64,000 bases of DNA from Bacteroidales bacterium (GTDB lineage: Bacteria > Bacteroidota > Bacteroidia > Bacteroidales > JAGOPY01): assembly GCA_017991835.1 (NCBI GenBank), contig JAGOPY010000009.1, forward strand, positions 62,001 through 126,000. The letters are read 5' to 3'. Below, one piece after another: positions 1,346 through 31,248 of the stretch. Position 1 is the first letter of the stretch. Each line of letters opens with the position of its first letter. The translations under genes were made by a program, and so were the position numbers. The notes under the pieces were generated by a model that did not search any database, had not been told where the DNA came from, and saw only the letters and a program-made list of their open reading frames with translations.

Positions 1346-1389
1346 TTCCGGGTTCCGGGTTCCGGGTTCCAGGTTCCGGGTTCCGGGTT
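1346..1389. repeat. Tandem heptamer array, unit GGTTCCG
   Basis: About six copies of a 7-bp unit read ttccggg, with one variant copy (ttccagg). The array begins about 10 bases after the YitT stop codon and leads into a second, unrelated heptamer array at 1401. Confidence 0.9.
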
Positions 1390-13055: not shown

Positions 13056-14540
13056 TTATTTGGGATTCAATTTTTCGGAAGATTTCTGCCAGGCGATCCG
13101 GTAGAAAAGCCAGATGACTAGGTCTGTGATTCTCAGGAAGATTGACCTTTTCTTATCGATCCACTCCAGTTTTTCATTGATTCCATCCTTATTTTTAATA
13201 AACCTCTCCAGGAACATGCGTCCGTAATTATGTCCTGTGGCATAGGTCCGGTAGGCCGTTTTAAAACTGCGGGTATTCCAGAGGGTGCGGAACATTTTTT
13301 TACGCAGGGTTTCCTTGTGGTACAGGTCCATCCAGATGCGGCGCATAGCCTGTTCAATCTCTTCCCTTTCCAGTGTCGCTGAGCGGGAGGTGGCCACCAT
13401 TCCGTCGTATTGCTGCCAGTCGGACGGGTAATCGTTCATCACGATTTTATTCTCCGCCTGCATCCGGTCGAACAGGATGGTTCCCGGCAAGGGGGTCAGA
13501 ACAGTACACTGGTAGGTGTCAATCGAACTTTTCAGGATGAAATCGCGGCGGGCATAGAGGCCATCGACCGAATCGCTGTCCATGGCAAAGATCATGGAGG
13601 CCAGGATCCCGATCCCATGCCGGTGCATTTTCTTAAAGACCTGGTCGTAATTGCCGGTCCCCAGCCGGAGGTTCAGGTTCTTCCGGACATCTTTCAGGGC
13701 CTGCGGTTTTTCTGCTTCTATCCCCATCAGAACCATATAGCAACCGCTTTTACGGGCCCAGTGAAGAACCTCGTCGTTGGCGGCGAAATTTACTGCAGCC
13801 TGGGAATACCATTCCCGGGTGAGTCCCCGGTCGACCATGGCTTTGAAAAGGTTAATTGCCCTTTCTTCAGACCCTTTTTTATTATTGACCAGGTTATCGT
13901 CGACGAAAAAAAGCAGCGGTCGCCGGGTTTTTTCCAGGTCGGCGATCACCGCGTTGATTTCGCGTTCCCGGTAGGTTTTGCCGCACATCTGTGTCACGGA
14001 GCAGAACTCGCATCCCATCGGGCAGCCGCGTGAAGTCTGGAGAAGGTCGTACACATAGGGATAACGGTCGAAGATATCCCTCCTGGGGGAGGCAATGTCG
14101 TTCACCGCAACAATCCCTCCGTCGTACCGGCTTTTAATGCGGCCGGCTTCAAAATCGTCGATCAGGGCGGGCCAGGCACCTTCCGCTTCGCCGAGGAAGA
14201 CGGTATCGACGAACCGTGCCGCTTCTTCGGGGCACATAGAGGCATGAATCCCTCCCATGACGGTATGAATGCCGGCCTGCCGGCAGATAGCGGCGATCTC
14301 ATAGGCACGATACGCAGCCGGCGTAAATCCCGTCAAGGCTACAATATCGGCAGGTTTAAGGGTGAACTCCCCGAAATATTCATCAACCAGTTCCACCTCC
14401 CAGTTTTCCGGGGTCAGGGCCGCCACGATCCCCAGGCCGAGGGGCATGGCAATAGTCCCTTCCGAATTCATAAAGCCGATCCTGACCCGGTTGACCGGAT
14501 TGACCAATATCAGCTTTCTTCGACGTTCTGCATCCATCAA
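13056..14540 (-). CDS. B12-binding-type radical SAM protein, copy 2
   Basis: A 494-residue enzyme with an N-terminal cobalamin-binding-like Rossmann domain (about 1-150; MGGIHASMCPEEAARFVD) followed by a radical SAM barrel. The [4Fe-4S] motif is C-x3-C-x2-C in RGCPMGCEFCSVT; further marks are LLFFVDDNLVNN and TVLTPLPGTILFDRM. The C-terminal 100 residues hold a conserved block (TLWNTRSFKTAYRTYATGHN). Relatives include methylases and cyclases acting on unactivated carbons of lipids and natural products; the substrate is unknown. It starts two bases after the stop of a close paralogue, giving a tandem pair. The classic DxHxxG cobalamin motif is not evident, so cobalamin use is inferred from the fold. 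Confidence 0.85.
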   Translation of the reverse strand: MMDAERRRKLILVNPVNRVRIGFMNSEGTIAMPLGLGIVAALTPENWEVELVDEYFGEFTLKPADIVALTGFTPAAYRAYEIAAICRQAGIHTVMGGIHASMCPEEAARFVDTVFLGEAEGAWPALIDDFEAGRIKSRYDGGIVAVNDIASPRRDIFDRYPYVYDLLQTSRGCPMGCEFCSVTQMCGKTYREREINAVIADLEKTRRPLLFFVDDNLVNNKKGSEERAINLFKAMVDRGLTREWYSQAAVNFAANDEVLHWARKSGCYMVLMGIEAEKPQALKDVRKNLNLRLGTGNYDQVFKKMHRHGIGILASMIFAMDSDSVDGLYARRDFILKSSIDTYQCTVLTPLPGTILFDRMQAENKIVMNDYPSDWQQYDGMVATSRSATLEREEIEQAMRRIWMDLYHKETLRKKMFRTLWNTRSFKTAYRTYATGHNYGRMFLERFIKNKDGINEKLEWIDKKRSIFLRITDLVIWLFYRIAWQKSSEKLNPK

Positions 14541-14541
14541 T

Positions 14542-16017
14542 TCATGATTTTTTACCGGAGACTCTCTTCAGGACTTTTTTCCAGGCGGTTTGATAGAAGA
14601 CCCAAAGGATAACATCGGTCAATTTCAAATACGTTGAACGTTTTTTCCCTGCCCATTCCAGTTGGGAGTTCAAGCCTTCCTTATCGGTTTGTATGAACCT
14701 TTCCAGGAACATCCGTCCGTAGTTATGGTTTGCGGCGTACGACCAGTAAGCGGTGCGAAAACTCCTGGTATTCCAGAGGGTCCTGAACATTTTCTTACGG
14801 ATGGTTTTTTTGTTATAGAGAGAAAGCCAAATCTCGTACATACTCCTGTCAATATCAGCATGATCCATAGAAGCTGTATCGATGGTTGCGGCATGGCAAT
14901 CGTACTGCTGCCAGTCGTCAGGATAATTGTTCAGCACGATCTGGTTGCGGGCTTTCACGCGTTCGAACAGTACCGTTCCGGGCAAAGGGGTCATGATCGC
15001 GCATTGGTAAGCATCCAGTGAGCTTCTCAGGATGTAATCCCTCCGGGCGAATAAATCTTCCTTTTTATCGCTCTCCATGCCGAAGATCATAAAAGCCAGG
15101 ATCCCGATCCCGTGTTTGTGGGCTTTCCGGAAGGTCTGTTCATAGGATTGAACCCCCCTTTTCAGATTCAGGTTTTTTCTGACATCTTTCAGGGCCTCTT
15201 CATTTTCCGCTTCCACCCCGACAAACACCATCATACAACCGCTTTTCCTGGCCCAATGGAGAACTTCCTCATTTTCAGCGAAATTTACAGTAGCCTGGCA
15301 CACCCAGAATTTATTCAGTTTCCGTTCGACCATTCCCCGGAAGAGGCTGATGGCGCGTTCGTGCGATCGTTTTGTATTCTGGATAAAATTATCATCCACA
15401 AAAAAAATAAGGGGACGGGTTGTTTCCTCCAGTTCGTCCAGGATGTCCTCCACTTTACGCTCGCGGTAGGTTTTCCCGCACAACTGGGTTACGGAACAGA
15501 ATTCGCATCCCAGCGGGCATCCGCGGGAAGTGCTGACCAGGTCGTAAACATAAGGATAGGTGTAGATATCCCTCCTGACATGAGGAACAGAATGGATATC
15601 GACATTTCCGCCATCATACAGTTTTTTTATTTTACCTGCCTCAAAATCAGCAATCAAACCCTGCCATGCGCCTTCCGCTTCGCCGGTAAAAACGGTATCA
15701 ACATATTCAGCGACTTCATCCGTAGCCAGGGAGGCATGGATGCCACCCATGACGGTATGGATTCCCTTTTCCCGGTAGACAGAAGCTATTTTATAGGCGC
15801 GCGGCGCATTGGCGGTAAAACCGGTAAAAGCAACCAGGTCAGCGAATCTGAAAGAAAATCGTTCATAACTCTCATCGATCAGTTCCACTTCCCAGTGATT
15901 GGGGGTAAGGGCGGCTACGATGCCCAGGCCGATCGGCATAAAACGGGTACTGTCGTCGTTTGTGAAACCCTGTCTTAACTCGTTTGCCGGGTTTATCAGG
16001 AGAAGTTTCTTGCGCAC
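14542..16017 (-). CDS. B12-binding-type radical SAM protein, copy 1
   Basis: A paralogue of the next gene with the same domain order: N-terminal B12-binding-like domain (VMGGIHASLATDEVAEYVD), radical SAM core with the cluster cysteines in RGCPLGCEFCSVT, then PLIFFVDDNFIQN, MTPLPGTVLFERV and the same C-terminal block. Large identical stretches between the two copies point to duplication. The frame is open to 16074, but the minus-strand word TATTTTTG (16056-16049) lies within that extension; the GTG at 16017, giving VRKKLLLINPANE, lines up with the start of the paralogue and is preferred. It is divergent from the stand-alone FAAL gene, 108 bases away, which suggests a joint role with the acyl-activation genes. 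Confidence 0.83.
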   Translation of the reverse strand: MRKKLLLINPANELRQGFTNDDSTRFMPIGLGIVAALTPNHWEVELIDESYERFSFRFADLVAFTGFTANAPRAYKIASVYREKGIHTVMGGIHASLATDEVAEYVDTVFTGEAEGAWQGLIADFEAGKIKKLYDGGNVDIHSVPHVRRDIYTYPYVYDLVSTSRGCPLGCEFCSVTQLCGKTYRERKVEDILDELEETTRPLIFFVDDNFIQNTKRSHERAISLFRGMVERKLNKFWVCQATVNFAENEEVLHWARKSGCMMVFVGVEAENEEALKDVRKNLNLKRGVQSYEQTFRKAHKHGIGILAFMIFGMESDKKEDLFARRDYILRSSLDAYQCAIMTPLPGTVLFERVKARNQIVLNNYPDDWQQYDCHAATIDTASMDHADIDRSMYEIWLSLYNKKTIRKKMFRTLWNTRSFRTAYWSYAANHNYGRMFLERFIQTDKEGLNSQLEWAGKKRSTYLKLTDVILWVFYQTAWKKVLKRVSGKKS

Positions 16018-16048
16018 TTTCAGATGTAAGATCGTGAATAACCAAATC

Positions 16049-16056
16049 CAAAAATA
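16049..16056 (-). promoter_or_regulatory. -7 element TATTTTTG for the radical SAM pair
   Basis: Perfect match to TAnnTTTG on the minus strand, 32 bases before the proposed GTG start at 16017. It forms a divergent pair with the word at 16098-16105. Confidence 0.6.
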
Positions 16057-16097
16057 GGGAAAAAGGGACTCCAACCCTCCCTTTTTACATTAATTGT

Positions 16098-16105
16098 TAC
16101 TTTTG
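16098..16105 (+). promoter_or_regulatory. -7 element TACTTTTG for the stand-alone FAAL
   Basis: Perfect match to TAnnTTTG, 20 bases before the ATG at 16126. An earlier ATG at 16112 is out of frame. No clear -33 TTTG was seen. Confidence 0.6.
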
Positions 16106-16125
16106 CGCCTTATGATCTCCAGGAT

Positions 16126-17841
16126 ATGATCGCGAGCATCCGAAACAGGAAAACACTGGCCGACCTGCTGATAAGTGCAGCCGGTGAATCGCCGGAAAAC
16201 GGGGTCGGATTTATCCGGGCCGACGGCAGCATTCAATTCCTGACATACCCCGGGTTGCTGGCGGAAGCGGAAACAATCGCCTCCGGAATCCGGTCGGAAG
16301 GGATAAAAGAAGGTGAATCTGTCATGATCATCATCACACGGAACGAGGTTTTGGTACCGACGCTCTGGGGGTGCATCCTGGCCGGCGTTGTTCCGACGAT
16401 CCTCCAGCCGCCGGTTTCATTCACCGAAGTCAATCCGCCCGCCTCGAAAATCGAAAACGTTTACAGCATCCTGGACAAGCCCGGGATCATCCTGTCGGAC
16501 GACCTGGCCGGGAGTTTCAATTCAACCGTCATCTCTCCCGAAAGCATTATCCCGGCAAGCGATCTGGCTGCCGGCAAAAACCCCGTCAGACAGGAATTAT
16601 CAAACGAAACGGAGAACCTGGCATTTATCCAGTTTTCTTCGGGAAGCACCGGCGATCCCAAAGGGATCATGCTGACTCACCGGAATATCCTTGTAAATAT
16701 TGCCGCAATTTGTGTCGGGCTCGATATTCACAAAAGCGATGTCATGTGCAACTGGATGCCGCTATACCACGACATGGGATTGTTCGGATTTCACATATGC
16801 CCGGTATTTGCCCAGAGCAACCACTACCTGATCGATCCGGTCGAATTCATCAAAAAACCTACCTTATGGCTTGACGTTATTGAACATTCGGGGAGCACGA
16901 TCACCGGTTGTCCGAATTTCGGCCAGGCCTTGTTGCTCAGGTATTTGAAAAACAGGCAGGAAAGCGGACGGAACCTTTCTTCATTAAAAGCAATAGTGAA
17001 CGGTGCGGAACCCATCTCCAACCGGATCATGTCGGAATTTACAGGCAAACTTTCGGTATCCGGGTTACGCAAAGAGGTCATGATGCCGGCTTATGGCATG
17101 GCTGAGAACACGCTGGCGATCACCTTTGCCGACCTGTGGAGCGAACCGCTCGTCATGAATTTCAACCGGACTTTGCTCCAGGCTCAGGGGATAGCCGTGA
17201 GGGAGGAAAAAAAATCAGGGGATACAGTCGAACTGGTGAGTGTCGGTAAAGCGCTGAATGATGTGGAAATAAAAATAGCGGATGATGATGGAAATGGGCT
17301 GGCAGAAGGGATGGAAGGGCACATCCGGATTCGGGGCAAAAGCGTAACATCGGGCTATATCAATAATCCGGAGGCCACGGCCGAAGCGTTCGAAGACGGA
17401 TGGCTGAAAACAGGCGACAAGGGATTTTTCTATGACGGACAGCTCTATATCACCGGCAGGATCAAGGATATCATTTTTGTGCACGGCCAGAACCTGTATG
17501 CCCATGACCTGGAGAACCTGGCCTCGAAACATGCCGACATCCCCTACGGTAAAGTCATCATCGGCGGCTCTTTCGATCCGAAAAAAGGAAAAGACCAGGT
17601 GATCCTGTTCCTGGTCGGATCGGCAAACCAGGCCCTTTGTGATCTGTTCCTGGAACTGAAAGGATTTTTCAGGGACACCTACGGAGTACATATTGATGTA
17701 TTTGTGCCGGTGCGGTCGAACCAGGTGCCGAAAACAAGCAGCGGGAAAATTCAAAGGTATAAGCTGCTGGAAGATTACCGCGACGGGGTTTTTGATGAGG
17801 CGATCGCAGAAATCAAGAAACTGGTACGGGAGCGGGAATAG
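16126..17841 (+). CDS. Stand-alone fatty acyl-AMP ligase (FAAL-like adenylating enzyme)
   Basis: A 571-residue member of the acyl-adenylate-forming family that activates a carboxylic acid as acyl-AMP and passes it to an ACP. Motifs in order: P-loop FSSGSTGDPKGIMLTH, NWMPLYHDMGL (FAAL/FAAL-like A4 region), MMPAYGMAENTL (A5), WLKTGDKGFF (A7), ITGRIKDIIFVHG (A8) and the catalytic lysine in KTSSGKIQRYK (A10). The HDMGL element and the AMP-ligase spacing favour FAAL over acyl-CoA synthetase. It lacks the C-terminal ACP of the three tandem genes at 18-24.6 kb; a discrete ACP lies 226 bases downstream and is its likely acceptor. Substrate acid is unknown. Confidence 0.88.
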   Translation: MIASIRNRKTLADLLISAAGESPENGVGFIRADGSIQFLTYPGLLAEAETIASGIRSEGIKEGESVMIIITRNEVLVPTLWGCILAGVVPTILQPPVSFTEVNPPASKIENVYSILDKPGIILSDDLAGSFNSTVISPESIIPASDLAAGKNPVRQELSNETENLAFIQFSSGSTGDPKGIMLTHRNILVNIAAICVGLDIHKSDVMCNWMPLYHDMGLFGFHICPVFAQSNHYLIDPVEFIKKPTLWLDVIEHSGSTITGCPNFGQALLLRYLKNRQESGRNLSSLKAIVNGAEPISNRIMSEFTGKLSVSGLRKEVMMPAYGMAENTLAITFADLWSEPLVMNFNRTLLQAQGIAVREEKKSGDTVELVSVGKALNDVEIKIADDDGNGLAEGMEGHIRIRGKSVTSGYINNPEATAEAFEDGWLKTGDKGFFYDGQLYITGRIKDIIFVHGQNLYAHDLENLASKHADIPYGKVIIGGSFDPKKGKDQVILFLVGSANQALCDLFLELKGFFRDTYGVHIDVFVPVRSNQVPKTSSGKIQRYKLLEDYRDGVFDEAIAEIKKLVRERE

Positions 17842-17857
17842 CCTTTTTTCCTTGCGG

Positions 17858-17945
17858 AGAATAATTCGCGTGAATTCGTAGCATTCGCGCATATTCGTGT
17901 TCAATTAATAGTACACGAATAACGCGAATTTATACGAATGATCAC
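17858..17945. repeat. Dispersed ATTCGCG/ATTCGTG-word repeat with hairpin
   Basis: The gap between FAAL and ACP contains many copies of attcgcg and attcgtg. An imperfect hairpin forms between 17883-17900 (attcgcgcatattcgtgt) and 17913-17929 (acacgaataacgcgaat). The same words recur near 38080-38140. A terminator role is possible, but no clear T-tract follows. Confidence 0.6.
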
Positions 17946-18039
17946 GGATCTTTTCACGGTCTATGATATAGTCCAATCTTATCAATGTTCTGAACCCGTG
18001 CCTAATATCTGTGAAAGCTGTGAGAAATAAAAAATAGAA

Positions 18040-18047
18040 TACCTTTG
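18040..18047 (+). promoter_or_regulatory. -7 element TACCTTTG for the ACP gene
   Basis: Perfect match to TAnnTTTG, 20 bases before the ACP ATG. It gives the ACP its own promoter in addition to any read-through from the FAAL gene. Confidence 0.6.
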
Positions 18048-18067
18048 CCGCTTCAAATTTATTAGAA

Positions 18068-18304
18068 ATGACCATCGAAGATTTTATTGCCAGGATTGAA
18101 GAGGAGTTTGACGACCTGGAACCCGGCAAGCTCAGGCCGGAATCGAATTTCAGGGAGGTGTTTGAGTGGAACTCGATCAACGCATTGATCCTTATCGCCC
18201 TGGTAAAAACCAATTACGATGTGGCCATCAATGCCGAAGACATCACCAAATCCAAAACGGTGAATGATCTGTATAAGATCGTAAAGGAACGAATAGCTTC
18301 ATAA
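18068..18304 (+). CDS. Acyl carrier protein, discrete
   Basis: A 78-residue acidic ACP. The phosphopantetheine serine is S36 in FEWNSINALIL, replacing the usual D-S-L-D/M motif with W-N-S-I-N; this departs from primary-metabolism ACPs and from the ACP domains fused to the nearby FAALs (GLTSMKA). It belongs to the specialised ACPs found in amino-sugar acylation and secondary lipid clusters. It has its own promoter word and lies between the stand-alone FAAL and a convergent broken FAAL-ACP gene, whose end is only two bases away. Likely partners are the FAAL, the KAS III at 24.7 kb and the reductase at 25.8 kb. Confidence 0.88.
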   Translation: MTIEDFIARIEEEFDDLEPGKLRPESNFREVFEWNSINALILIALVKTNYDVAINAEDITKSKTVNDLYKIVKERIAS

Positions 18305-18306
18305 AG

Positions 18307-20364
18307 TTATTTTTCAGATTCCTTTATCAACCGGAAAGCTCTTTCTGACAGTTCATTCAGCGATATTCTTTCAAAAAACAGGTAAGGAGGAAAGTTCACC
18401 TGGAAATTCTCCAGGAAATCCTGCTGGAGTTGTACGGCTTTCATGGAATTCAGCCCGTAAACGGTTATAGGTTTGGATAAATCAATCTTCTCCAGCCTGA
18501 TCTTTAATTTGAGATGGATCCATGTCATCAGCCATGCCCGGATAGACACCAGGTCGGGTGGTGACAGGGATTCCTCATTATCTTCTTTATAATCAGTCAG
18601 AAAGGACTCTCCGACAACTTCCAGGGAGTGGCTTAAGAAAGCCTTCTGACAAGCTTTTCGCTGAATTTTTCCACTTGATGTTTTCATAATGGTAGCTGTA
18701 CGGATAAGCTGAATACCATAGACGGCCAGTTCCATTTCAGCGGCAATTTTTGTCCGGATGGCATTGACAACCTCCTCCACGTTCAGATCCTTCATCGCTG
18801 TGCGTTCCACCTCAGCGATAATTATCAATCTTTCTGTATCATCAATTATAACCGAAAATGCCGCGCTGGAATTTGCTCTGATAGCTTTATGGCTGCTTTC
18901 GGTAAGATATTCAATATCCTGAGGGTAATAATTACTCCCCCGGATTATGATTAAATCTTTTAATCTGCCGGAGATAAAGAGCTTTCCTTCGTGAAAAAAG
19001 CCAAGGTCGCCGGTTCTGAGAAATGGCCCTCTGCCGTTGCTGGCTGTATATGCATTAAAAATGTTCCGGGTTTCCTCATCATTTTCCCAATATCCTTTTG
19101 TGACAATCGAGCCCGATACCCAAAGCTCACCCACTACGTCGCCGGGGCAGGGTTCCAATGTGTCAGGATTAACAATGGTGATGGAAGTATCAATCCAGGG
19201 ATTTCCTACCGAAACGAGGCTATAGGCATTTTCATTTTCTTCGGCAACAATACGGATCCGGTTTTTTTCAAGCTCGGTCTTATCTACATAAACTACAACG
19301 GGTTTATCGCACACCTTGCCTCCCGAGAGTATGAGCGTTGCCTCTGCCATTCCATACGTCGGATAAAACATCTCCTCACGGAATCCAAACGGACCGAATT
19401 TTCCGGTAAATGCTTTCATGGTGGAGGCTCTTACCGGTTCAGCCCCGTTATACAGTGATTTTAGACTACTCAGGTCCAGGTCTTTGCATTCGTCTTCCGA
19501 AATATCCGCAACACAAAGATCGTATGCGAAATTAGGCGCGCCGGCCAGTGTTGCTTTATACCTGGATATGGCTTTCAGCCATCTCGACGGTTTCTGGATG
19601 AATGAAACCGGCGGCATAAGAATACCAGTATATCCTGTGTAAATGGATTCCAGGACACCAAAAACCAGGCCCATATCGTGAAAAACCGGCAGCCAGTGTA
19701 CGGAAATAGAATCCGGTGTAAGCTCAACAGCTTGTCTCAGAAATTCAAGGTTCCTCATCAGGTTATGATGGGTCACCATAACGCCTTTGGGTTTACCTGT
19801 AGAGCCGGAGGTGTACTGGAGCAGGGCGATTTGGGGATTTGGGGATTTGGGGATTTAGAGATTGGAGGATTGGATTTGTGATTTTGAGATGGGATGGGTT
19901 GAGAGCCAGGTCAATTTTTGAAGTTCGATGGTGTCTGAAAATGATCGTTGGCTGGTTTGCCTGATGTCGTCCGTTGAAAGCACAATGCTGGCGCCGGAAT
20001 CGCTTGCCAGGGCCCTGAGCCGCTCAAGCGAACGGTTTTTCCTGGGAGGGTATGCCGGGACTGCAATGACTCCTGCGTAAAAACAACCAAAGAGAGCTTT
20101 GATAAATTCAAGTCCGGCAGGATAGAACATAAGGGCGCGGTCGCCGGGCCGGGTGGCTTCAGTTAATTCCCGGGAAATGGCTAACGCTGAATTATAAAGC
20201 TGTCCGTATGTGATTCTTTCTTCATCGTTCTCCCCGTCGCGTAAAAATATAAACGCACACCGGTCAGGTGTGCAGGCAGCCCTCTTATTCAACAGGTCAG
20301 CGAGCGTTAACAGGCCTGTGCCTTCGTCTGAAGCCTGTTCAATAGTAATATCAGAGCGTCTCAT
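18307..20364 (-). pseudogene. FAAL-ACP didomain gene interrupted by one in-frame TAA
   Basis: The frame from the ATG at 20364 to the stop at 18307 is continuous, 685 codons, except for a single TAA at 19857-19855. Before it lies the N-terminal adenylation part (170 codons including the stop); after it, still in the same frame, come the P-loop YTSGSTGKPKGVMVTHH, HDMGLVFG, FYPTYGMAEATL, LRTGDLGFF, KTSSGKIQRK and the ACP domain with its serine in GLNSMKAV. The stop aligns with a CAA (Gln) codon of the intact neighbour, so a C-to-T change in CTCCAAATC is enough. It lies inside a short-period repeat tract. The intact neighbour has the same overall length. It may be recently inactivated, variable in the population, or a sequencing error. 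A shorter product could start at the ATG of 19779 but would lack the P-loop. Confidence 0.88.
19828..19890. repeat. In-gene octamer tract, unit GGGGATTT, carrying the stop codon
   Basis: About four 8-bp copies (ggggattt) decay into gattgga/gattttg variants. On the coding (minus) strand they read ccccaaat and encode the linker between the N-terminal subdomain and the P-loop. The variant copy ggatttagag supplies the in-frame TAA. Since 8 is not a multiple of 3, gain or loss of one unit would shift the frame. Confidence 0.85.
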
Positions 20365-20377
20365 GAGGTAAAGAAAA

Positions 20378-20385
20378 CAAATATA
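20378..20385 (-). promoter_or_regulatory. -7 element TATATTTG for the interrupted FAAL-ACP gene
   Basis: Perfect match to TAnnTTTG on the minus strand, 13 bases before the ATG. A promoter still in place fits a gene that lost its frame only recently. Confidence 0.55.
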
Positions 20386-20408
20386 CTATAAAAACTTTTA
20401 TAGTTCCT

Positions 20409-22466
20409 CTAGTTTTCTTTAATAATTTTTATTGCTTTCTCACAAAGTTCTCTTAATGAAGATTTTTCAAAAAACAGATAAGGGGGAAAACTGACGCCAT
20501 ATCTTTCCAGGAAGTCCTGCTGCAGGGCCACTGCTTTCATTGAGGTAAGTCCATAAGCGGTTATAGGCCTTGCCAGGTCGATACGGTTAAGGGGAATTTT
20601 CAGTTTTTCATGGATCCAGGTCATCAGCCAGGCTTCCAGATTTACAATATCGACCGATGTTGGTTCGGGCTGATCTTCATGGAACTGCGTCTCAAGAACG
20701 GATTCCCCGAGTGAATCCAGTTTATTTTGCAGGAATGCCTCCCGGCACGCTTTGCGCTGAATTTTACCACTGGAAGTTTTCAGGATGGAAGCCGTTCGAA
20801 GCAACTGGATAGCATGCACGGAAAGTTCCGTTTCCATGACGATATTCTCCCGGATCCTGTCGCAAACCCCATCCACATCCAGGTCACGTATTGCTGTGCG
20901 TTCCACTTCAGCTACAACGACCAGCTTTTCTTCACCGCTGATATCCACAGGAAATGCAGCGCTGGCATTTTTCCTGATCGATGGATGTGAATTTTCGGTA
21001 AGGAATTCGATATCCTGAGGGTAAATATTTCGTCCATTAATAATGATGAGGTCTTTATATCTTCCGGAGATAAATAGCTCACCATCATGAAAAAAGCCAA
21101 GGTCACCGGTCCGCAGATATTTTTCACCCGGATCACCGGCTATTTCAGCAGCAAAAACTTCTTTCGATGCGTCAGGTTTTCCCCAATACCCGGCTGTAAC
21201 GATAGAGCCGGAAACCCAGATTTCGCCCACCTCATCGTCGTTCAATAACCGGCAGGTCTCCGGATCGACAATTTTCACCCGTGTATCAATCCAGGGATAA
21301 CCAACGCCGACGAGGTGCCTGGCATCAGGATGCTGATCACTGACAGGAACGATCCTGTTTTTTTCAAGTTCGCCGGCCGAAAGGCAAAGATAAACCGGTC
21401 CTCTTCCGGCATGCGGGCCGGTGATAATGAGGGTGGTTTCAGCCATTCCGTAGCAAGGATAAAGTTTTTCGTGTGAAAAACCATATTCCCGGAAGGATGA
21501 AACAAACCGTTCGAAGGTCGATTTACGGATAGGTTCTGCACCGCAGTACAGCGTTTCCATAGATGAAAGGTCCAGGCTTATTTTTTCTTCTTCAGCGATG
21601 CCCTCTGCGCAAAGATCGAAGGCGAAATTCGGACCGCCGCCGTGTGTGCCCCTGTACTTTGTGATCGCTTTCAGCCAGCGAACGGGTTTCTGCAGAAAAC
21701 TAACGGGCGGCAGAATTACGCCGGGGAAACCCGTATAAACCGGAACCAGTACGCCATCTATCAATCCCATGTCATGAAAACTGGGAAGCCAGGTAACGGA
21801 AACGCTTTTCGGCGAAAGCGCAAAACTTTGCCGGATATATTCGGCATTCCGGATAATATTCCGGTGGGTGACCATGACTCCTTTGGGATGACCGGTCGAG
21901 CCGGAGGTGTACTGAAGCAGGGCGATGTCTGGATTTGGGGATTTGGAGATTTGGAGATTGGAGATTTGGAGATTGGAGGATTGGGGGATTGGGGGATTGG
22001 GGGTGATCCATGGTATCCCCTGAAGTTCAGTTACATCAGCGAAAGAGCGTTCGGCTGATTGGCGGATATCGTCGGTTGAGAGGACGAGGCTTGAACCGGA
22101 GTCATTCACCAGGAGGCGCAGCCGTTCAAGCGACCGGTTCTTCCGTGGGGGATAGGCCGGTACGGCGATCACACCGGCGTAAAAGCATCCAAACAATGCT
22201 TTGATAAAATCAAGGCCGGGAGGAAAAAGCATCAGGGCCCGATCGCCCGGTTTTGCTATTTCAAGCAGAGAATGAGATAAGTCAATTGCTGCCTGGTGCA
22301 GCTCCCGGTATGTAATATGTTCCTCCGATTCATCACCATCCTGAATAAAAATAAATGCGGTCTGGTCAGGATTTGAAACAGCCCTGCCATGCAGGATATG
22401 CATCAGCGAAGGATCCTTGATAACCCCTGCAGGTAAGAACTCATCGTTAAAAAAATTGTCTTCCAT
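20409..22466 (-). CDS. FAAL-ACP didomain protein, intact with repeat-coded linker
   Basis: A 685-residue fusion of a fatty acyl-AMP ligase (about 1-590) and an acyl carrier domain (about 605-685). Motifs: YPPRKNRSLERLR, P-loop YTSGSTGHPKGVMVTH, WLPSFHDMGLI, LYPCYGMAETTL, LRTGDLGFF, FISGRYKDLIIINGR and the catalytic lysine in LKTSSGKIQRKAC; the phosphopantetheine serine is about S642 in AYGLTSMKAV. Such didomains usually load an acyl chain onto their own ACP for a downstream condensing enzyme, and no large polyketide synthase is present here. A tract around residue 160 reads NLQISNLQISKSPNP and is encoded by a 7/8-bp repeat. It is the middle of three tandem paralogues. Confidence 0.9.
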   Translation of the reverse strand: MEDNFFNDEFLPAGVIKDPSLMHILHGRAVSNPDQTAFIFIQDGDESEEHITYRELHQAAIDLSHSLLEIAKPGDRALMLFPPGLDFIKALFGCFYAGVIAVPAYPPRKNRSLERLRLLVNDSGSSLVLSTDDIRQSAERSFADVTELQGIPWITPNPPIPQSSNLQISNLQISKSPNPDIALLQYTSGSTGHPKGVMVTHRNIIRNAEYIRQSFALSPKSVSVTWLPSFHDMGLIDGVLVPVYTGFPGVILPPVSFLQKPVRWLKAITKYRGTHGGGPNFAFDLCAEGIAEEEKISLDLSSMETLYCGAEPIRKSTFERFVSSFREYGFSHEKLYPCYGMAETTLIITGPHAGRGPVYLCLSAGELEKNRIVPVSDQHPDARHLVGVGYPWIDTRVKIVDPETCRLLNDDEVGEIWVSGSIVTAGYWGKPDASKEVFAAEIAGDPGEKYLRTGDLGFFHDGELFISGRYKDLIIINGRNIYPQDIEFLTENSHPSIRKNASAAFPVDISGEEKLVVVAEVERTAIRDLDVDGVCDRIRENIVMETELSVHAIQLLRTASILKTSSGKIQRKACREAFLQNKLDSLGESVLETQFHEDQPEPTSVDIVNLEAWLMTWIHEKLKIPLNRIDLARPITAYGLTSMKAVALQQDFLERYGVSFPPYLFFEKSSLRELCEKAIKIIKEN
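21931..22003. repeat. In-gene 7/8-bp repeat tract in the FAAL-ACP linker
   Basis: The plus strand reads about nine units of gatttgga, gattgga and gattggg in mixed 7- and 8-bp lengths. It encodes the low-complexity linker just before the P-loop. It matches in place and wording the tract that carries the stop codon in the neighbouring paralogue, while the third paralogue lacks it. Confidence 0.85.
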
Positions 22467-22479
22467 TTTTCCGGTGCCG

Positions 22480-22487
22480 CTAAAGTA
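22480..22487 (-). promoter_or_regulatory. Near-consensus -7 element TACTTTAG
   Basis: One mismatch to TAnnTTTG on the minus strand, 13 bases before the ATG of the middle FAAL-ACP gene. It suggests that the tandem copies are transcribed separately. Confidence 0.45.
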
Positions 22488-22508
22488 CTAAAAAATCAGC
22501 GCATCGGT

Positions 22509-24593
22509 TCAGGCTTCTTCAATAACCTTCAGCGCTTTTTCACAGAGTTGCTTCAGCGAATTCTTCTCAAAGAACAGATAGGGAGGAAAACTGACCCCAA
22601 ATTTTTCCATGAAATCCTGTTGAAGAACGATTGCTTTCATGGAGGTCAATCCATAGGCTGTAATGGGCCGGGAGGCATCGATCCGGTTCAGCGGCACCTT
22701 GAGCTTTTCATGTATCCAGCTCATAAGCCATGCTTCCAACCTGACAATGTCGACGGTAGTATCATCCGGTTCATCGGTATGATATTGAGACTCAAGATAA
22801 GATTCTCCAACCACGTCAAGGGTTTTGTTAAGAAATGCTTCCATGCAGGCCCTGCGCTGGATTTTACCACTGGAAGTCTTCAGAATGGAAGCTGTTCTGA
22901 GCAACTGGATGGCATGAACTGCAAGCTCCGTTTCCAGGGCGACATTTTCCCGGATGCTGTCACATACTGCATCGACATCCAGCCCTATGATAGCGGAACG
23001 CTCTACCACGGCCACGATGACCAGTTTTTCTTCACCATTAACCTCGACAGAAAATGCTGCGCTGGAATTTTGGCGGAGGGCCGGGTGGGAATTCTCCGCA
23101 ATGAACTCAATATCCTGGGGATAGATATTCCTTCCGTAGATGATGATCATATCTTTCAACCGGCCTGATACATAAAGTTCTCCTTCATGCAAAAAGCCCA
23201 GGTCACCGCTTCGCAGGTAATTCGTACCCGGATCATCATCGAGCCTGGCCTGGAAAACTTCCCGGTTGATCTCAGCTTTGTTCCAATATCCCGGCGATAC
23301 GCTGGAGCCGCTTATCCAGATCTCACCCACTTCATCCGCCATACAGGGTGTAAGGGTTTCCGGGTCTACAATCCGGATTTTCATGTCGAGCCAGGGAAAA
23401 CCCACGCTTACCAGGAATTTTACTTCGCTTTCACTATTCCGGGGGAGCCTGACTTTATTCTTTTTCAATGACTCGCCGTCTACAGCAAGGTATATAGGCC
23501 TTCTGCCAGCCGGAGGCCCTGTGGTTATGAGCGTAGTCTCGGCCATCCCATAGCAGGGATAAAGCATCTCTTCCCTCAAACCGTGAGCCTTGTATGCATT
23601 GAAAAAATTATCGAACGTCGATTTTCGGATGGGTTCAGCACCACAATAGATTGTTTTGAGCGAAGAAAGATCCAGTTCCTGCTTTTCCCCGGCTGTGACG
23701 CTCTCTGTCAGCAGGTCGTAAGCAAAATTAGGCGCACCGCCCATCGTGCCCCTGTACTTTGTAATGGCCCGAAGCCATCTGACAGGCTTCTGGAAAAATG
23801 CTACCGGCGACATCAGCACACTGGGAAAGCCGGTGTAAACAGGTTCAAAAACCTGGCCGACAAGTCCCATATCGTGAAACGTAGGGAGCCAGGAAACGGC
23901 TACTGTTTTCCGGGAGAACCCGAAGCTGTTCCGGATGAATTCGCAGTTCCGCATAATGTTCCGGTGGGTAATCATCACTCCTTTGGGATTACCGGTTGAA
24001 CCGGAAGTGTATTGAAGGAGAGCGACCGAATCGGGATCAGGGAAAGAAGACGAATGAGGGTCAACCTGACGTGTTTTCTTCGGAATATAGGATTCGAGAT
24101 TCTCATGAAGGTCGGGATTATCTCTAAAAACGATCCATTCCAGGCTGCGGAGTTCCTTTAAATCTGAAAAGGACCGGTTGAACGACTGATAAATCTCGGT
24201 GGTGGTAATTACAGTGGTAGCTTCGGAGTCCGTTACAATCTTCATGATCCGGTCAAGCGAACGGTTTTTTCTCGGGGGATAAGCCGGAACAGCAATAACC
24301 GAAGCATAAAAACAAGCCATAAGAGATTTGATGAATTCCAGCCCGGGAGGAAAAAGCAGTAATGCCCGTTTGCCGGCCATATTCATTTCCATCATCCGCC
24401 GGGCCAGCCCGGATGCTGAGCTCCCCAATTCCCGGTAGGTGATCCTCTCCTCATCACTCTCCCCGTCTTTCAGGTAAATAAATGCGATCTCGTCCGGCGT
24501 ATTACTGACGCGGTAATTCAGCACATCCAGCAAAGAAAAAGTATTGGTATCAGCTTCGGTGATACGGTCATAAAGGAAGTTCTCAAGGCCCAT
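22509..24593 (-). CDS. FAAL-ACP didomain protein, copy without repeat tract
   Basis: A 694-residue paralogue of the two genes downstream. The adenylation part carries YPPRKNRSLDRIM, P-loop YTSGSTGNPKGVMITH, WLPTFHDMGLVG, LYPCYGMAETTL, LRSGDLGFL, YVSGRLKDMIIIYGR and the A10 lysine in LKTSSGKIQRRAC. The C-terminal ACP has its serine at about S651 in AYGLTSMKAI. The linker before the P-loop is an ordinary charged sequence (PKKTRQVDPHSSS), so the repeat tracts in the other two copies are likely later insertions. It is divergent from the KAS III gene, with a back-to-back promoter pair between them. The acid that it activates cannot be read from sequence. Confidence 0.92.
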   Translation of the reverse strand: MGLENFLYDRITEADTNTFSLLDVLNYRVSNTPDEIAFIYLKDGESDEERITYRELGSSASGLARRMMEMNMAGKRALLLFPPGLEFIKSLMACFYASVIAVPAYPPRKNRSLDRIMKIVTDSEATTVITTTEIYQSFNRSFSDLKELRSLEWIVFRDNPDLHENLESYIPKKTRQVDPHSSSFPDPDSVALLQYTSGSTGNPKGVMITHRNIMRNCEFIRNSFGFSRKTVAVSWLPTFHDMGLVGQVFEPVYTGFPSVLMSPVAFFQKPVRWLRAITKYRGTMGGAPNFAYDLLTESVTAGEKQELDLSSLKTIYCGAEPIRKSTFDNFFNAYKAHGLREEMLYPCYGMAETTLITTGPPAGRRPIYLAVDGESLKKNKVRLPRNSESEVKFLVSVGFPWLDMKIRIVDPETLTPCMADEVGEIWISGSSVSPGYWNKAEINREVFQARLDDDPGTNYLRSGDLGFLHEGELYVSGRLKDMIIIYGRNIYPQDIEFIAENSHPALRQNSSAAFSVEVNGEEKLVIVAVVERSAIIGLDVDAVCDSIRENVALETELAVHAIQLLRTASILKTSSGKIQRRACMEAFLNKTLDVVGESYLESQYHTDEPDDTTVDIVRLEAWLMSWIHEKLKVPLNRIDASRPITAYGLTSMKAIVLQQDFMEKFGVSFPPYLFFEKNSLKQLCEKALKVIEEA

Positions 24594-24624
24594 AGATAAA
24601 ACCCGGCTTAATTAAAAATCTTTA

Positions 24625-24671
24625 CAAAATTAGAAAAGGAATCGTAACATATCTAATTAAAATTAACTTTG
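24625..24671. promoter_or_regulatory. Divergent -7 elements for FAAL-ACP and KAS III
   Basis: TAATTTTG on the minus strand (24632-24625) faces the FAAL-ACP gene and TAACTTTG on the plus strand (24664-24671) faces KAS III. Both are perfect matches and are 31 bases apart, so the two units could be regulated together. The plus-strand word leaves a very short leader before the ATG at 24678. Confidence 0.62.
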
Positions 24672-24677
24672 TCTGAT

Positions 24678-25793
24678 ATGGCAATCTTCACCGTACCAAA
24701 TATCCGCATAGCCGGCATGGCAGCCGCCGTTCCGCAGAAAGAGGTTTCCAACCTTGACTACCGCTGGATCTCCGAAAAAGAAAGGCAGCAGGTGGTTAAA
24801 ACCATTGGCGTCGAAAAAAGGCACATTGCGGAAAAGGGGCAGACAACATCGGATCTTTGCTTTGCAGCCGCTACCCGGTTGCTGAACGACCTGAAATGGA
24901 ACCGCGAAGATATCTCAGCGCTCGTATTCGTTTCCCAATCGATGGATTACATTATCCCGGCCACATCTCCCATCATGCAGAACAGGCTGGGGCTTCCCAA
25001 AACCTGCATGGCATTCGATATCGGCCTGGGCTGTTCGGGGTTTGTTTACGGATTGTCTGTCATCGCCAGCCTGATGAACCAGTCGGGGATGAAAAAAACG
25101 CTCCTGATGGCCGGCGATCTATCGAATGTGACCTCATCTTATCGCGACAAATCGACCTACCCGTTATTTGGTGATGCCGGGACGGTGACAGCGCTGGAAT
25201 TCGATCCATCCGCTTCACCGATGATCTTCAACCTCCAGACCGACGGCGCCGGGCACCAGGCCATTATGATCCGCGACGGAGGGGTAAGAAACCTGATGAG
25301 TAAAAAATCATTCACCTTTAAAAAACACGGAGATGGAATTTACCGGTCGAACCTGCATATTTCACTCAACGGCATAGAGGTATTTAATTTTTCGCTGCGC
25401 GAAGTGGTGCCCAATATCAAAGCTACATTGGAATATGCCGGGACAACCCTGGCGGATTACGATTATTACGTCTTCCACCAGGCCAACCGGCTGATCAACG
25501 AAACGATCCGCAAGATGCTCCGGGTGGAGAAAGAGAAGGTCCCCTACTCCATCCATAAATACGGCAATACCAGCAGCGCTTCGGTCCCGCTGACGATGAT
25601 ATCGGAACTGCAGGAAGAACTCACGACACAGAAGCTCAGGTTCCTGCTCTCTGCCTTCGGCATCGGTCTTTCGTGGGGAACGGTGCTTTTGGAAACGGAT
25701 TCGATCGTATGCAGCGGCGTGGTGACAGAGGGCAGTCGGCAGTCGGCAGTCGGACAACCAATGACGCGAGCGAAGCGCGCTAATGACCAATAA
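24678..25793 (+). CDS. Beta-ketoacyl-ACP synthase III family (KAS III)
   Basis: A 371-residue condensing enzyme of the FabH type, expected to join a starter acyl group to malonyl-ACP. The full catalytic triad is present: C119 in IGLGCSGFVYG, H267 in YYVFHQANRLI and N297 in HKYGNTSSAS. Start: the ATG at 24678 rather than the TTG at 24669, which falls within the promoter word. The last 18 or so residues (GSRQSAVGQPMTRAKRANDQ) are low-quality protein encoded by a heptamer array and a dispersed repeat, so the original C-terminus was probably near residue 350. It is followed by the SDR gene eight bases later. In known amino-sugar clusters such enzymes make 3-oxobutyryl-ACP for sugar N-acylation. 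Confidence 0.9.
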   Translation: MAIFTVPNIRIAGMAAAVPQKEVSNLDYRWISEKERQQVVKTIGVEKRHIAEKGQTTSDLCFAAATRLLNDLKWNREDISALVFVSQSMDYIIPATSPIMQNRLGLPKTCMAFDIGLGCSGFVYGLSVIASLMNQSGMKKTLLMAGDLSNVTSSYRDKSTYPLFGDAGTVTALEFDPSASPMIFNLQTDGAGHQAIMIRDGGVRNLMSKKSFTFKKHGDGIYRSNLHISLNGIEVFNFSLREVVPNIKATLEYAGTTLADYDYYVFHQANRLINETIRKMLRVEKEKVPYSIHKYGNTSSASVPLTMISELQEELTTQKLRFLLSAFGIGLSWGTVLLETDSIVCSGVVTEGSRQSAVGQPMTRAKRANDQ

Positions 25794-25795
25794 CT
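25731..25795. repeat. Heptamer array GGCAGTC plus dispersed repeat inside the KAS III 3' end
   Basis: Three copies of ggcagtc are followed by gacgcgagcgaagcgcgc and taatgacca, which match (reverse strand) the repeat next to galE at 11185-11225 and part of the one after fabD. The stop codon of KAS III lies within this repeat. Confidence 0.82.
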
Positions 25796-25801
25796 CAAAT
25801 C

Positions 25802-26536
25802 ATGACCCCATTCGAACTAACCGGTAAAACGATTTTAGTCACAGGAGCTTCCTCAGGGTTGGGGAAACAGTGTGCCATTACGGCAAGTGAGCAGGGCGCA
25901 ACGGTAATAATTACCGGGCGCAATACCGAACGACTTCTGGAGACATTTGAAAAGCTCTCCGGCACCGGGCATCAGATGTTCGGTGCCGACCTGACTGTTC
26001 AGGCCGATATTTCGGCTCTTGTAGCCCGACTCCCGGAGCTCAACGGGGTCGTATACAGCACCGGCATCTCCGACCTGGCGCCGGCCCGGTTTGTCACGCA
26101 GCAGGAAATCGATAAAACCTTTTCCATCAGCTTTAACGCATCCGTATTGCTGACCGGCGAGCTGCTGGCAAAGAAAAAACTGGCGAAAGGGGCCTGTTCA
26201 CTGGTCTTCATCTCCACCATCTCCACGAAGTACCCCTTTGTCGGCGGAACGATGTACATCAGCGCCAAAGCGGCCCTGGAATCCTATGCAAAGGTGCTTG
26301 CGCTGGAGCTGGCGCCCAAAGGGATCCGTTCCAACAGCATTTCGCCGGCCTTTGTCAAAACCCCTATGCTCGACCATACGGCTGAAAAGTATTCGGATGA
26401 AGCGGTCCGTAAGATCGAGGCGCAGCAATTGCTGGGCCTGGGCGAACCGGAAGATGTGGCGAATGTTGTGGTATTCTTCCTGTCGGATGCTTCCCGGTGG
26501 ATCACAGCGAGTAATTTGATTTTAGGCGGGGGATAA
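25802..26536 (+). CDS. Short-chain dehydrogenase/reductase, FabG-like
   Basis: A 244-residue NAD(P)-dependent reductase. The cofactor loop TGASSGLGKQ is at 14-23, and the catalytic Ser-Tyr-Lys are in the ISTISTKY region, with Y152 and K156 in MYISAKAALES. The usual NNAG motif is replaced by YSTG. Length and fold match 3-oxoacyl-ACP reductases. Placed directly after KAS III (eight bases), it most likely reduces the 3-oxoacyl-ACP product to a 3-hydroxyacyl-ACP. It is followed by a GNAT acyltransferase after a repeat-rich gap. Other SDR substrates cannot be excluded. Confidence 0.88.
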   Translation: MTPFELTGKTILVTGASSGLGKQCAITASEQGATVIITGRNTERLLETFEKLSGTGHQMFGADLTVQADISALVARLPELNGVVYSTGISDLAPARFVTQQEIDKTFSISFNASVLLTGELLAKKKLAKGACSLVFISTISTKYPFVGGTMYISAKAALESYAKVLALELAPKGIRSNSISPAFVKTPMLDHTAEKYSDEAVRKIEAQQLLGLGEPEDVANVVVFFLSDASRWITASNLILGGG

Positions 26537-26540
26537 AAGC

Positions 26541-26571
26541 AGTTCAAAGTTCAAAGTTCAAAGTTCAAAGT
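26541..26571. repeat. Tandem heptamer array, unit GTTCAAA
   Basis: Four copies of gttcaaa begin five bases after the stop codon of the reductase gene. Confidence 0.9.
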
Positions 26572-26600
26572 TTTAAGGTCAAACTTATTGATTACCAGTA

Positions 26601-26650
26601 TTATTCTTTGTGTTCCTTTGTGAAACCCTTTGTGCGCCTTTGTGGTTAAA
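26601..26650. repeat. CTTTGTG-word repeat
   Basis: Four copies of ctttgtg spaced by three to four bases, ending in gcgcctttgtggttaaa. This end matches both arms of the long inverted repeat at 39361-39475, so it is the same dispersed family. Confidence 0.8.
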
Positions 26651-26667
26651 AAAATATTCAATTCAAC

Positions 26668-27357
26668 ATGAAACTCTCAAAATACGGTATTACCTTAAGA
26701 CGTTTGCGGGAAGGCGACACCGAGATGGTTCGGCAATGGCGGAACTCAAAGCAGATCAGCCAGTTCATGGAGTACCGGGAACAGATCACACCCGAAATGC
26801 AGGGGGAATGGTTTAAATCGGTGGATAATTTCGACAATTTTTACTATATCATTGAATACCAGGGAGAAGATATTGGCCTGATCAATTCCAGCAAGATCGA
26901 TTGGCGTGATGTGAGCTCCGAAGGGGGCATTTTTCTCTGGGACGAGAAGTATTATGAGACTTTTGTCCCGGTCTGGGCCTCGCTTTGCCTCCTGGAAACA
27001 TCATTTTTTATTCTAGGCGCTTCCCGGTCGGTCATTAAAACGTTGAAGGACAATGATCGGGCCAGGAAACTGAACCTGCACCTTGGATATGAACTGCAAC
27101 CCGGCCAGGATGAAGTTTACAACCAGGTGTATGTAATGACGGCCGAAAGTTTCAGGCGCCATGCCGTTAAGCTGATAAAAGCAGCAAGGCTGATGGCTGG
27201 CCACGATCCGGAAGACCACCGCGTTTTTTTCGATAAGGAAGACATTCAATCGGGCCTGGCCGACTTTGTTTATAGCAAGATCGATAAGGAAATGGTTGCT
27301 AGATCCCGTGAATCCGAAGAAGGCAGGTTGTATATCTTCAGGCCTACAACGGTTTGA
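26668..27357 (+). CDS. GNAT family acyltransferase, PseH-like
   Basis: A 229-residue protein with a GNAT fold over residues 5-165: an N-terminal LRRLREGDTEMVRQWRNS stretch, the pattern of sugar-amine acyltransferases such as PseH, then GEDIGLINSSKIDW and the C-terminal alpha/beta piece NDRARKLNLHLGYEL. A helical extension of about 60 residues follows. Family members acylate the amino group of nucleotide-linked amino sugars. With KAS III and the reductase just upstream, an acyl-ACP donor is a reasonable guess, and a 4-amino-4,6-dideoxyhexose a reasonable acceptor. The end overlaps the convergent sulfotransferase by 14 bases. The normal acetyl-CoA donor remains an alternative. Confidence 0.75.
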   Translation: MKLSKYGITLRRLREGDTEMVRQWRNSKQISQFMEYREQITPEMQGEWFKSVDNFDNFYYIIEYQGEDIGLINSSKIDWRDVSSEGGIFLWDEKYYETFVPVWASLCLLETSFFILGASRSVIKTLKDNDRARKLNLHLGYELQPGQDEVYNQVYVMTAESFRRHAVKLIKAARLMAGHDPEDHRVFFDKEDIQSGLADFVYSKIDKEMVARSRESEEGRLYIFRPTTV

Positions 27358-28417
27358 CCTTCCGCTTGTTAAACCTCCAGTAAAGCTTAAGGAAAATACC
27401 GAGTCTTTTATTCAGCGTATTCCTCCATTTGTAAGGAAGATGATCTCCCATCCGGATCAGCCGGTACATCAATGAGGCATAAACCAGTGTCGGGAGTATC
27501 CACAGGTATAGAAATATATTGAAGGAAGGATATTGCCTCCCGTAGCCGGCTTTTTCCGCCGTTTTGCCGGCAACCAGGTCGGCGACACGGATCTGGTGTG
27601 GCGTCATCTGCTTTTTCCAGAGCTCCATCCGGTCGGTGGAAATAGGGTTGAACAAACTTTTATGCACAATGGCTATTTCTTCCGAACCGGCATAAGACCT
27701 TTCGACTTCCTCTTTTTTCTCATAAAAACTGAGAACATGCGGATCAAAATCAAGCTCCAGGAACGCACAGGCATCTCTGAACGTCTTTTCAGGATCAGTG
27801 GCCAGATCTTCGTATTTCATCGAATAAACCTGCCCCGGATGCTGTTTCTTCAATTTTTGCATCAGCCTGTAAGCAAACTTCCACCGGTATATCACCAGCG
27901 GGACAACAGGCACTTCAAAATTCACATTGATCAGCGAAAGGTAATTGTCCCTGTAATCTCGGGTGATGTGAATGATTTTCGCATCGGGGAAGAGCCTGAG
28001 GATCCGGCCGGGATATAACGAATACGCCGGATTTTTATCCCCGATCATTCTGAGTTCTTCCTTACGGTAAACCGAACGGTAACTTAATTCCACCCGTTTT
28101 ACCATTTCCCGGAAAGTAGTCTTCCCTTTTCCCGCAAGCAGATTCTGATAAAGTACTTCTTTGTCGACCAACCATTTATCAAAATAGCGTTGCCGATAAA
28201 CATCTTCTGAAAATTCCCGGATCAGTTTTTCATCCCAGTCTATTTCTTTAAAATATTTTTTATAAAGGCTGATGATAAAAGGACATTCTGGAGGGATCAG
28301 CACGTGGGGATGCGCTTCAAAAAGAAGCCGGAGCAACGTGGTTCCGGAACGGGGCCTTCCGATAATAAAGAAGACCGGCAAGGTGGCAATGGCTTGATCT
28401 TCTATCCGCTGATCCAT
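27344..28417 (-). CDS. PAPS-dependent sulfotransferase, copy 1
   Basis: A 357-residue sulfotransferase. The 5'-phosphosulfate loop is GRPRSGTTLLRLLFEAHP (from residue 20), the 3'-phosphate part is in IIHITRDYRDNYLSLINV, and a helical C-terminal region follows. The fold transfers sulfate from PAPS to a hydroxyl or amino group of a glycan, lipid or small molecule. No membrane anchor or signal is visible, so it should act in the cytosol. Its start overlaps the flippase end by 16 bases, indicating one transcript. A clear paralogue lies at 32.2-33.2 kb. PAPS-forming genes are not in the window. The acceptor is probably part of the locus glycan, by context only. Confidence 0.88.
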   Translation of the reverse strand: MDQRIEDQAIATLPVFFIIGRPRSGTTLLRLLFEAHPHVLIPPECPFIISLYKKYFKEIDWDEKLIREFSEDVYRQRYFDKWLVDKEVLYQNLLAGKGKTTFREMVKRVELSYRSVYRKEELRMIGDKNPAYSLYPGRILRLFPDAKIIHITRDYRDNYLSLINVNFEVPVVPLVIYRWKFAYRLMQKLKKQHPGQVYSMKYEDLATDPEKTFRDACAFLELDFDPHVLSFYEKKEEVERSYAGSEEIAIVHKSLFNPISTDRMELWKKQMTPHQIRVADLVAGKTAEKAGYGRQYPSFNIFLYLWILPTLVYASLMYRLIRMGDHLPYKWRNTLNKRLGIFLKLYWRFNKRKVKPL

Positions 28418-29700
28418 TTTTTCGCTCTCTTAAGGAAGTCAAAATCACTTTTCTGGTATGCAAATATCTGCAAAACAGGCATCTTTACAATTTTTGAGTA
28501 CACAAAAATATAAACCAGCGTTCCCAGGGTATAGCTGGCATTGGTAGCCATAACCGCGCCGAATGAACCCCACAGCGGGATCCACCAGAGGTTAAGCAGA
28601 ATGTTCAGGATGAGTGCCGGGGCAAATACATAGATTGAAATCTGCGGTTTCCCGATTCCCGAGAGGCGGCTGTTCAGCACCCGGTAAATGCTGATGAAAA
28701 TGATCCCCGGGAGAATAAACTGAACTGTGGTGATACTCTGCCGGAACTTTTCCCCCCAAATCGCCGGCACGATCCAGGGAGATATTACAAAGAGCACGAC
28801 AGAGGCGAGGAAAACCGCAAGCAAAGCCACCCTGACGAGCCGGGCACTGATCCTGTTGATCATCTGCTGATCGTCGGCATTGGCCGTCCGGCTCATCAGC
28901 ACCACGCCGATAGCCAGCGGCAGTTGCCATAGCTTCTCGGCGATGGAAACGCCCAGCGAATAAAATCCAACTTCCTCCATCGTAGAGAGTTTCTGCAACA
29001 GCAAAATATCGATCCGGTAATTCAACTGGATGATACCGAAGGATGTGGCAAACAGCACGCCCATCGACAATAAGCTTTTCAACACTTCGGGATGGAATTT
29101 TAACCGGATTCCGATGTCTCTCCTGATCACAAAAAGTGCCCAGGTTGAAATAGTAGCCTGTGAGGCCAGCAGGCTTATCAGGGCGCCTTTGATGCCCCAG
29201 CCCAGAAGCCAGACAAAAACCAGGACTGCCAGCAGATTCAGGAATTCGGCGAACCAGTTGATGAAATTTGACCGGCTGATTTGCTCACGACCGAGGAATA
29301 TCCCGCCGAAATAAGCCATAGCCAGCCGGAAAGGCAGGGAGAGCAGTACGAGGATGATGTAAAGTCCTGTAAACGATTCTTCATCCATGATCAGGTAACC
29401 AAGGGCGGTTATCAGTATGCCCAGCATGGATGTCATAACCAGTATCAAAACCACACTGCCGGCTATTTCACCGGGTTCATACTGTTTTCGCCCAATATGA
29501 AAAATGGAAGAGGCCCTCATGCCCAGTTGGGCAAAGCTGACGACAACCAGCGGCAAGACCAGGATGGCCGAATAAATCCCAAAATTTTCCGGGCCCAGAT
29601 TCCTTGAAAGGACTATGCTTGACAGTAGCCCTGCCGTGATCAGGAAGATCCTTGTGGCCACTACCCCCGTGACGTCCCGCAGAAGGCTTCGTTTTGACAT
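28402..29700 (-). CDS. Oligosaccharide flippase family (Wzx-like) membrane protein
   Basis: A 432-residue membrane protein with about 12 helices. The N-terminus (TRIFLITAGLLSSIVLSRNL, then GPENFGIYSA) is the standard opening of polysaccharide transporters of the MOP superfamily. Such proteins flip undecaprenyl-linked oligosaccharides to the outer face of the inner membrane. It is translationally coupled to a sulfotransferase, so the sugar unit may be sulfated before or during export. A TACCTTTG word lies on the minus strand at 29712-29705, only five bases before the ATG. This would make the mRNA nearly leaderless or mean that the word is not its promoter. Confidence 0.88.
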   Translation of the reverse strand: MSKRSLLRDVTGVVATRIFLITAGLLSSIVLSRNLGPENFGIYSAILVLPLVVVSFAQLGMRASSIFHIGRKQYEPGEIAGSVVLILVMTSMLGILITALGYLIMDEESFTGLYIILVLLSLPFRLAMAYFGGIFLGREQISRSNFINWFAEFLNLLAVLVFVWLLGWGIKGALISLLASQATISTWALFVIRRDIGIRLKFHPEVLKSLLSMGVLFATSFGIIQLNYRIDILLLQKLSTMEEVGFYSLGVSIAEKLWQLPLAIGVVLMSRTANADDQQMINRISARLVRVALLAVFLASVVLFVISPWIVPAIWGEKFRQSITTVQFILPGIIFISIYRVLNSRLSGIGKPQISIYVFAPALILNILLNLWWIPLWGSFGAVMATNASYTLGTLVYIFVYSKIVKMPVLQIFAYQKSDFDFLKRAKKWISG

Positions 29701-29704
29701 GGCG

Positions 29705-29769
29705 CAAAGGTAATTTTTTTGAAGCTATGTTTCCCGGGCTGAATGCCTTGATGAAAATACTTACATTTG
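29705..29769. promoter_or_regulatory. Divergent -7 elements for flippase and MBOAT genes
   Basis: TACCTTTG on the minus strand (29712-29705) and TACATTTG on the plus strand (29762-29769). The plus-strand word overlaps a TTG at 29767 and supports the ATG at 29791 as the MBOAT start. Confidence 0.55.
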
Positions 29770-29790
29770 CGGCCTAATATTCAGTTGCTC

Positions 29791-31242: not shown

Positions 31243-31248
31243 TAAGGC

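Follow-up and report, generated by a model that had tools for sequence, protein, structure and literature searches.

Within a 64,000-nucleotide stretch of the genome of an environmental Bacteroidales bacterium (here called the window), gene A, which encodes a didomain FAAL-ACP, is best read as a nonsense pseudogene that arose recently and is peculiar to its strain or species, with two paralogues, genes B and C, probably covering for it, and with the repeat array that surrounds its stop codon as tolerated filler rather than a switch (probability roughly 0.72 for this reading). Gene A spans 18,307–20,364 on the minus strand (ORF reading and Pfam; 686 codons) and contains one internal TAA besides its terminal TAA; the internal stop is codon 170 (19,857–19,855, minus strand), the lone stop in 685 codons, with no frameshifts. 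Minus-strand reading together with Tandem Repeats Finder confirmed the claim of an earlier, sequence-only reading that a single TAA, placed within an 8-bp repeat, interrupts an otherwise continuous frame. The parts that it had described as intact were likewise all seen in the sequence: the adenylation motifs, the ACP serine (YGLNSMKAV) and, 5′ of the gene at 20,378–20,385 (minus strand), a TAnnTTTG-like candidate promoter word (TATATTTG), found by inspection.

The interrupted gene and its intact neighbours

Genes B (20,409–22,466; ORF reading, Pfam and AlphaFold) and C (22,509–24,593; tree and profile matches), both on the minus strand, are intact FAAL-ACPs. Gene B has 686 codons, no internal stops and, in the loop that holds the array of gene A, an array that is longer, and gene C, the sister of gene B, encodes 694 amino acids and is free of the array. 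Protein alignment placed a CAA (Gln) codon of gene B opposite the TAA of gene A, as had been claimed for the intact neighbour. The equal total length reported for genes A and B also stands, at 686 codons each, but the equality looks coincidental, because Bacteroidota homologues vary from about 678 to 697 amino acids.

Pfam assigned AMP-binding, DIP2-like AMP and PP-binding domains to gene B (PF00501, PF23024 and PF00550, respectively), and the same three domains are divided over the two open frames of gene A. An AMP-binding fold with an A3 motif is followed by a C-terminal PP-binding domain with its serine, which lies in a YGLTSM/YGLNSM context in genes A and B. The solved chains closest to genes A–C are FAALs rather than acyl-CoA ligases (3KXW and 7R7E-G are solved FAALs among the closest known systems), and the top NCBIfam models are FAAL-type, yet every score falls below the curated cut-off. 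Judged by these matches, genes A, B and C are didomain FAAL-ACPs, an arrangement already described, with HapA, NocH and AmbG as examples (review PMC11837247). They share with these an adenylation domain with a fused ACP behind it, and differ in lying three in tandem in a lipid-type cluster of a Bacteroidales genome, in the repeat array carried by the loop of two of them and in the stop carried by one.

The P-loop is situated between the internal stop of gene A and the in-frame ATG that follows that stop (19,779); neither product has the P-loop YTSGSTGKPKG, from which loss of the adenylation function is to be expected. In the mechanism that we favour, a point change would have produced the TAA in an array unit that reads CAA elsewhere, the ribosome would halt short of the ATP-binding motif, having added 169 residues, and no adenylating enzyme would be made from gene A; genes B and C, although members of another clade, may take over the function and leave gene A dispensable. 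That the two halves are instead translated separately and reassemble, or that the stop is read through, would accord with the conserved sequence kept in both open parts. The P-loop motif is in neither part, and neighbouring genes terminate with TAA, which gives no hint of an altered code; we give next to no credence to a split working gene.

Age and ancestry of gene A

Conservation points to a recent loss. Gene A keeps 85 of the 86 columns that are invariant in 18 other homologues (the sole change being Ile to Leu), its downstream/upstream identity ratio is 1.11 (1.04–1.14 in intact genes), and its neutral divergence since the loss does not exceed about 5% (95% upper bound from an equal-rates model with one stop). 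The best relatives of gene A among 393 genomes of the order (G179, at 63%, G076 and G270) are all intact. Together with the single stop and the absence of frameshifts, these observations support the suggestion of the sequence-only reading that the loss is very recent. Recent nonsense pseudogenes are a known kind in bacterial genomes, and gene A fits their pattern of one disabling change in a frame that is otherwise conserved, with intact orthologues and with paralogues close by; it differs from them in nothing essential, its stop merely happening to fall in a repeat array. The chance that a nonsense mutation arising at random lands in that array is only about 1%; calculated post hoc, this value is not in itself proof of a special process, though it allows for some connection between the array and the stop. 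In favour of an old, decaying pseudogene, gene A has a nonsense codon and two paralogues that might replace it; the invariant columns, the identity ratio and the lack of frameshifts largely refute old decay, and we consider it scarcely credible.

The same conservation, with one stop and no frameshift, indicates either that the loss is recent or that the stop reflects a variant within the population or a consensus error. The latter, in which an error of sequencing or consensus calling, or else a minor allele in the metagenome assembly, would conceal a gene that is intact in the population, is an unlikely reading that nevertheless deserves some weight: the assembly is a draft of 26 contigs with 76% completeness, and gene A otherwise shows the full conservation of an intact gene. 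General considerations weigh the other way: consensus substitution errors are infrequent per gene, and the 44-bp array fits within one read.

As to closer genomes for comparison, the single FAAL-ACP of a same-genus genome is distant (44%), and a scan of the collection brought up none nearer. In a tree computed without the loop columns, gene A groups with the G179 clade (83/89) and gene B with gene C (99/98), the latter pair adjoining G125, G365 and G007, and a topology comparison rejected a clade of A and B (p 0.0002). By region, codons 186–676 of gene A are G179-type (99/98; A+B rejected there, p 1.7e-9), and codons 22–150 group with gene B (84/75; G179 grouping rejected, p 0.013). Old gene conversion is the simplest reading of a B-like front joined to a G179-type main part. 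An exchange with gene B of the front part of gene A, up to the array in the repeat-bearing loop, is moderately supported by this regional test, which was run after the pattern had been seen and rests on 128 columns. Inheritance of the array from a common ancestor of A and B was rejected as the straightforward account, with gene B the sister of the array-less gene C, the A+B clade rejected and the regional results modestly favouring conversion.

The octamer array in the gene and across the genome

The array in gene A (CCAAATCN; 19,828–19,871, minus strand) has a period of 8, 5.5 copies and 83% matches over 44 bp (Tandem Repeats Finder) and encodes the loop before the ATP-binding motif; its clean section is short, about three perfect units, mostly downstream of the TAA. 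The array in gene B, of octamer/heptamer units, lies at 21,931–22,003 (minus strand; Tandem Repeats Finder). Homologues align poorly in the loop that runs from a conserved Trp to LLQYTSG, and in them 30–48 residues separate the Trp from YTSG. This stretch measures 35 residues in gene A and 37 in gene B, the array occupying the loop with its length little altered, and in an AlphaFold model of gene B (15 homologues; mean pLDDT 81) residues 158–172 and 174–179 have pLDDT values below 50. Located in a low-confidence, variable loop of little-changed length, the array is most likely tolerated filler of a floppy segment just before the ATP-binding motif, one copy of a repeat family that is genome-wide and mostly intergenic. 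In the FAAL-ACP of G007 (L180), a different, CT-rich low-complexity stretch occupies the same loop, which seems to accept repeats on more than one occasion.

The earlier suggestion that slippage could make the site a switch found no support. Such a switch, toggling gene A off and on reversibly, draws on the facts that a copy-number change of an 8-bp unit shifts the frame and that repeats of this type slip in other bacteria. What disables gene A is a substitution, however, not a frameshift. Gain or loss of one unit cannot yield a full-length product either, because 8 bp do not make up whole codons and the two alternative frames end at gene offsets 570 and 590, no more than about 30 codons beyond the array. 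If it occurred upstream of the TAA, such a change would bypass that codon but run into another stop within about 30 codons. The frame would be kept only by a net three-unit change that removed the stop-bearing unit, an event far less likely than one-unit slippage, and the clean units lie mostly downstream of the TAA. In addition, gene B is intact with a longer array, and most arrays of the genome are intergenic. Gene A does not behave as a contingency locus, in which unit changes alternate between a full-length and a closed frame, and we judge a reversible switch very improbable.

The sequence-only reading had also taken the tract for a repeat of gene A's own. This proved wrong: the array is one of about 30 or more octamer arrays (NGATTTGG/CCAAATCN) across the genome, with intact gene B and other genes also carrying one. 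When at most one mismatch is allowed, the pattern CCAAATCNCCAAATCNCCAAATC occurs 91 times in this genome, against no occurrence of its reversed control; the survey of arrays draws on these matches and on about 30 sequence stretches with rough gene calls around arrays. A pattern search found no octamers in the same-genus genome, and in a sample of relatives the pattern occurs in 11 of the 99 genomes, this one included, and is numerous in two of the 11. A perfect four-unit run is confined to this genome among 296 drawn from the phylum. Heptamer arrays with differing units are also present in the window (1,346–1,389, 1,401–1,510, 25,731–25,753, 26,541–26,583, 56,463–56,482 and 56,505–56,527), and the genome is rich in 7–8-bp repeats of several kinds.

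In the stretches examined, the octamer arrays are mostly intergenic, with a strict orientation at gene ends. Fifteen of them (L061, L062, L063, L070–L073, L078–L082, L084, L086 and L087) begin at the stop codon of a gene or no more than about 20 bases from it, and some of them overlap that codon. The GATTTGG sense was found at all of these (15/15) and at the stop-adjacent arrays of G070, a genome of another family (6/6; L191, L192, L194, L199 and L200), the G-rich strand of (NGATTTGG)n being the coding strand at every one. The few intragenic arrays that are in frame all have the CCAAATC sense, whose consensus is stop-free in three frames; besides those of genes A and B, they lie in a BD-FAE-type hydrolase (L077, 1,987–2,034), in an alpha-L-fucosidase (L089, about 1,990–2,110) and in an unclassified protein, within its N-terminal region (L083, 2,033–2,080). 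One intragenic array, in L067, has the opposite (GATTTGG) sense.

A search of the literature on octamer repeats in Bacteroidetes returned none matching, the nearest parallel being the G-rich GGGNATC heptamers of Xanthomonas and Nostoc (Rehm et al. 2015, PMC4692102), which are dispersed, mostly intergenic and rare in coding regions; on the coding strand they lie near stop codons or overlap them, and on the other strand they lie upstream of genes. The octamer resembles these in its many arrays, mostly intergenic location and strand-specific placement at gene ends, and differs in its unit, NGATTTGG, which has mainly GG runs and is not a GGGNATC-type heptamer; in distribution and orientation it behaves like this class of G-rich simple sequence repeats, without being the same repeat. 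The TAACTGA heptamers of Beggiatoaceae, Cyanobacteria and some Bacteroidetes (PMC4679880) offer a second comparison, being likewise short, patchily distributed, intergenic and preferentially placed, whereas their unit is another one and in Beggiatoaceae they lie mostly immediately upstream of start codons. A more far-reaching proposal would make the octamer an actively spreading repeat that overwrites loops and gene ends, moves between paralogues by conversion, raises the local mutation rate and repeatedly inactivates genes such as gene A, thereby acting as a repeat-driven diversifier of the cluster; we regard this as improbable.

The lipid-type cluster and the meaning of the probable loss

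Gene A occupies the site at which relatives of another family keep their only FAAL-ACP, in the same lipid-type cluster. In G179 and G270, a single FAAL-ACP is enclosed by the same pair of genes, for an ACP and a KASIII, which in the window are a free-standing ACP beside gene A (PF00550; 18,068–18,304, plus strand) and a KASIII-like synthase that, together with an SDR reductase, flanks gene C (24,669–26,536, plus strand), in an order kept in both relatives. Further neighbours that G179 and G270 share with the window are genes for a FAAL, a reductase, a GNAT protein, a sulfotransferase, a flippase and an MBOAT protein, and the cluster in the window includes a free-standing FAAL-like adenylating enzyme (16,126–17,841, plus strand). 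These syntenic relatives have one intact FAAL-ACP at the place of gene A, and the repeat is absent from it. The whole cluster (13,056–32,241), which is partly syntenic with other Bacteroidales, comprises two B12-binding radical SAM proteins, four FAAL-type enzymes, an ACP, a KASIII, a reductase, a GNAT protein, a sulfotransferase, a flippase and an MBOAT protein, and its product is probably an exported or cell-surface lipid. Besides the positional copy, the genome holds two FAAL-ACPs of another clade, genes B and C.

As a gene loss, gene A is ordinary. Its value is that of a snapshot, in which the positional copy of a lipid-cluster enzyme appears to have been lost and two copies of another clade retained, and in which a short repeat that is normally intergenic appears to be tolerated in frame within an enzyme loop. 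For annotation of the cluster, two working FAAL-ACPs are predicted and should be counted, not three.
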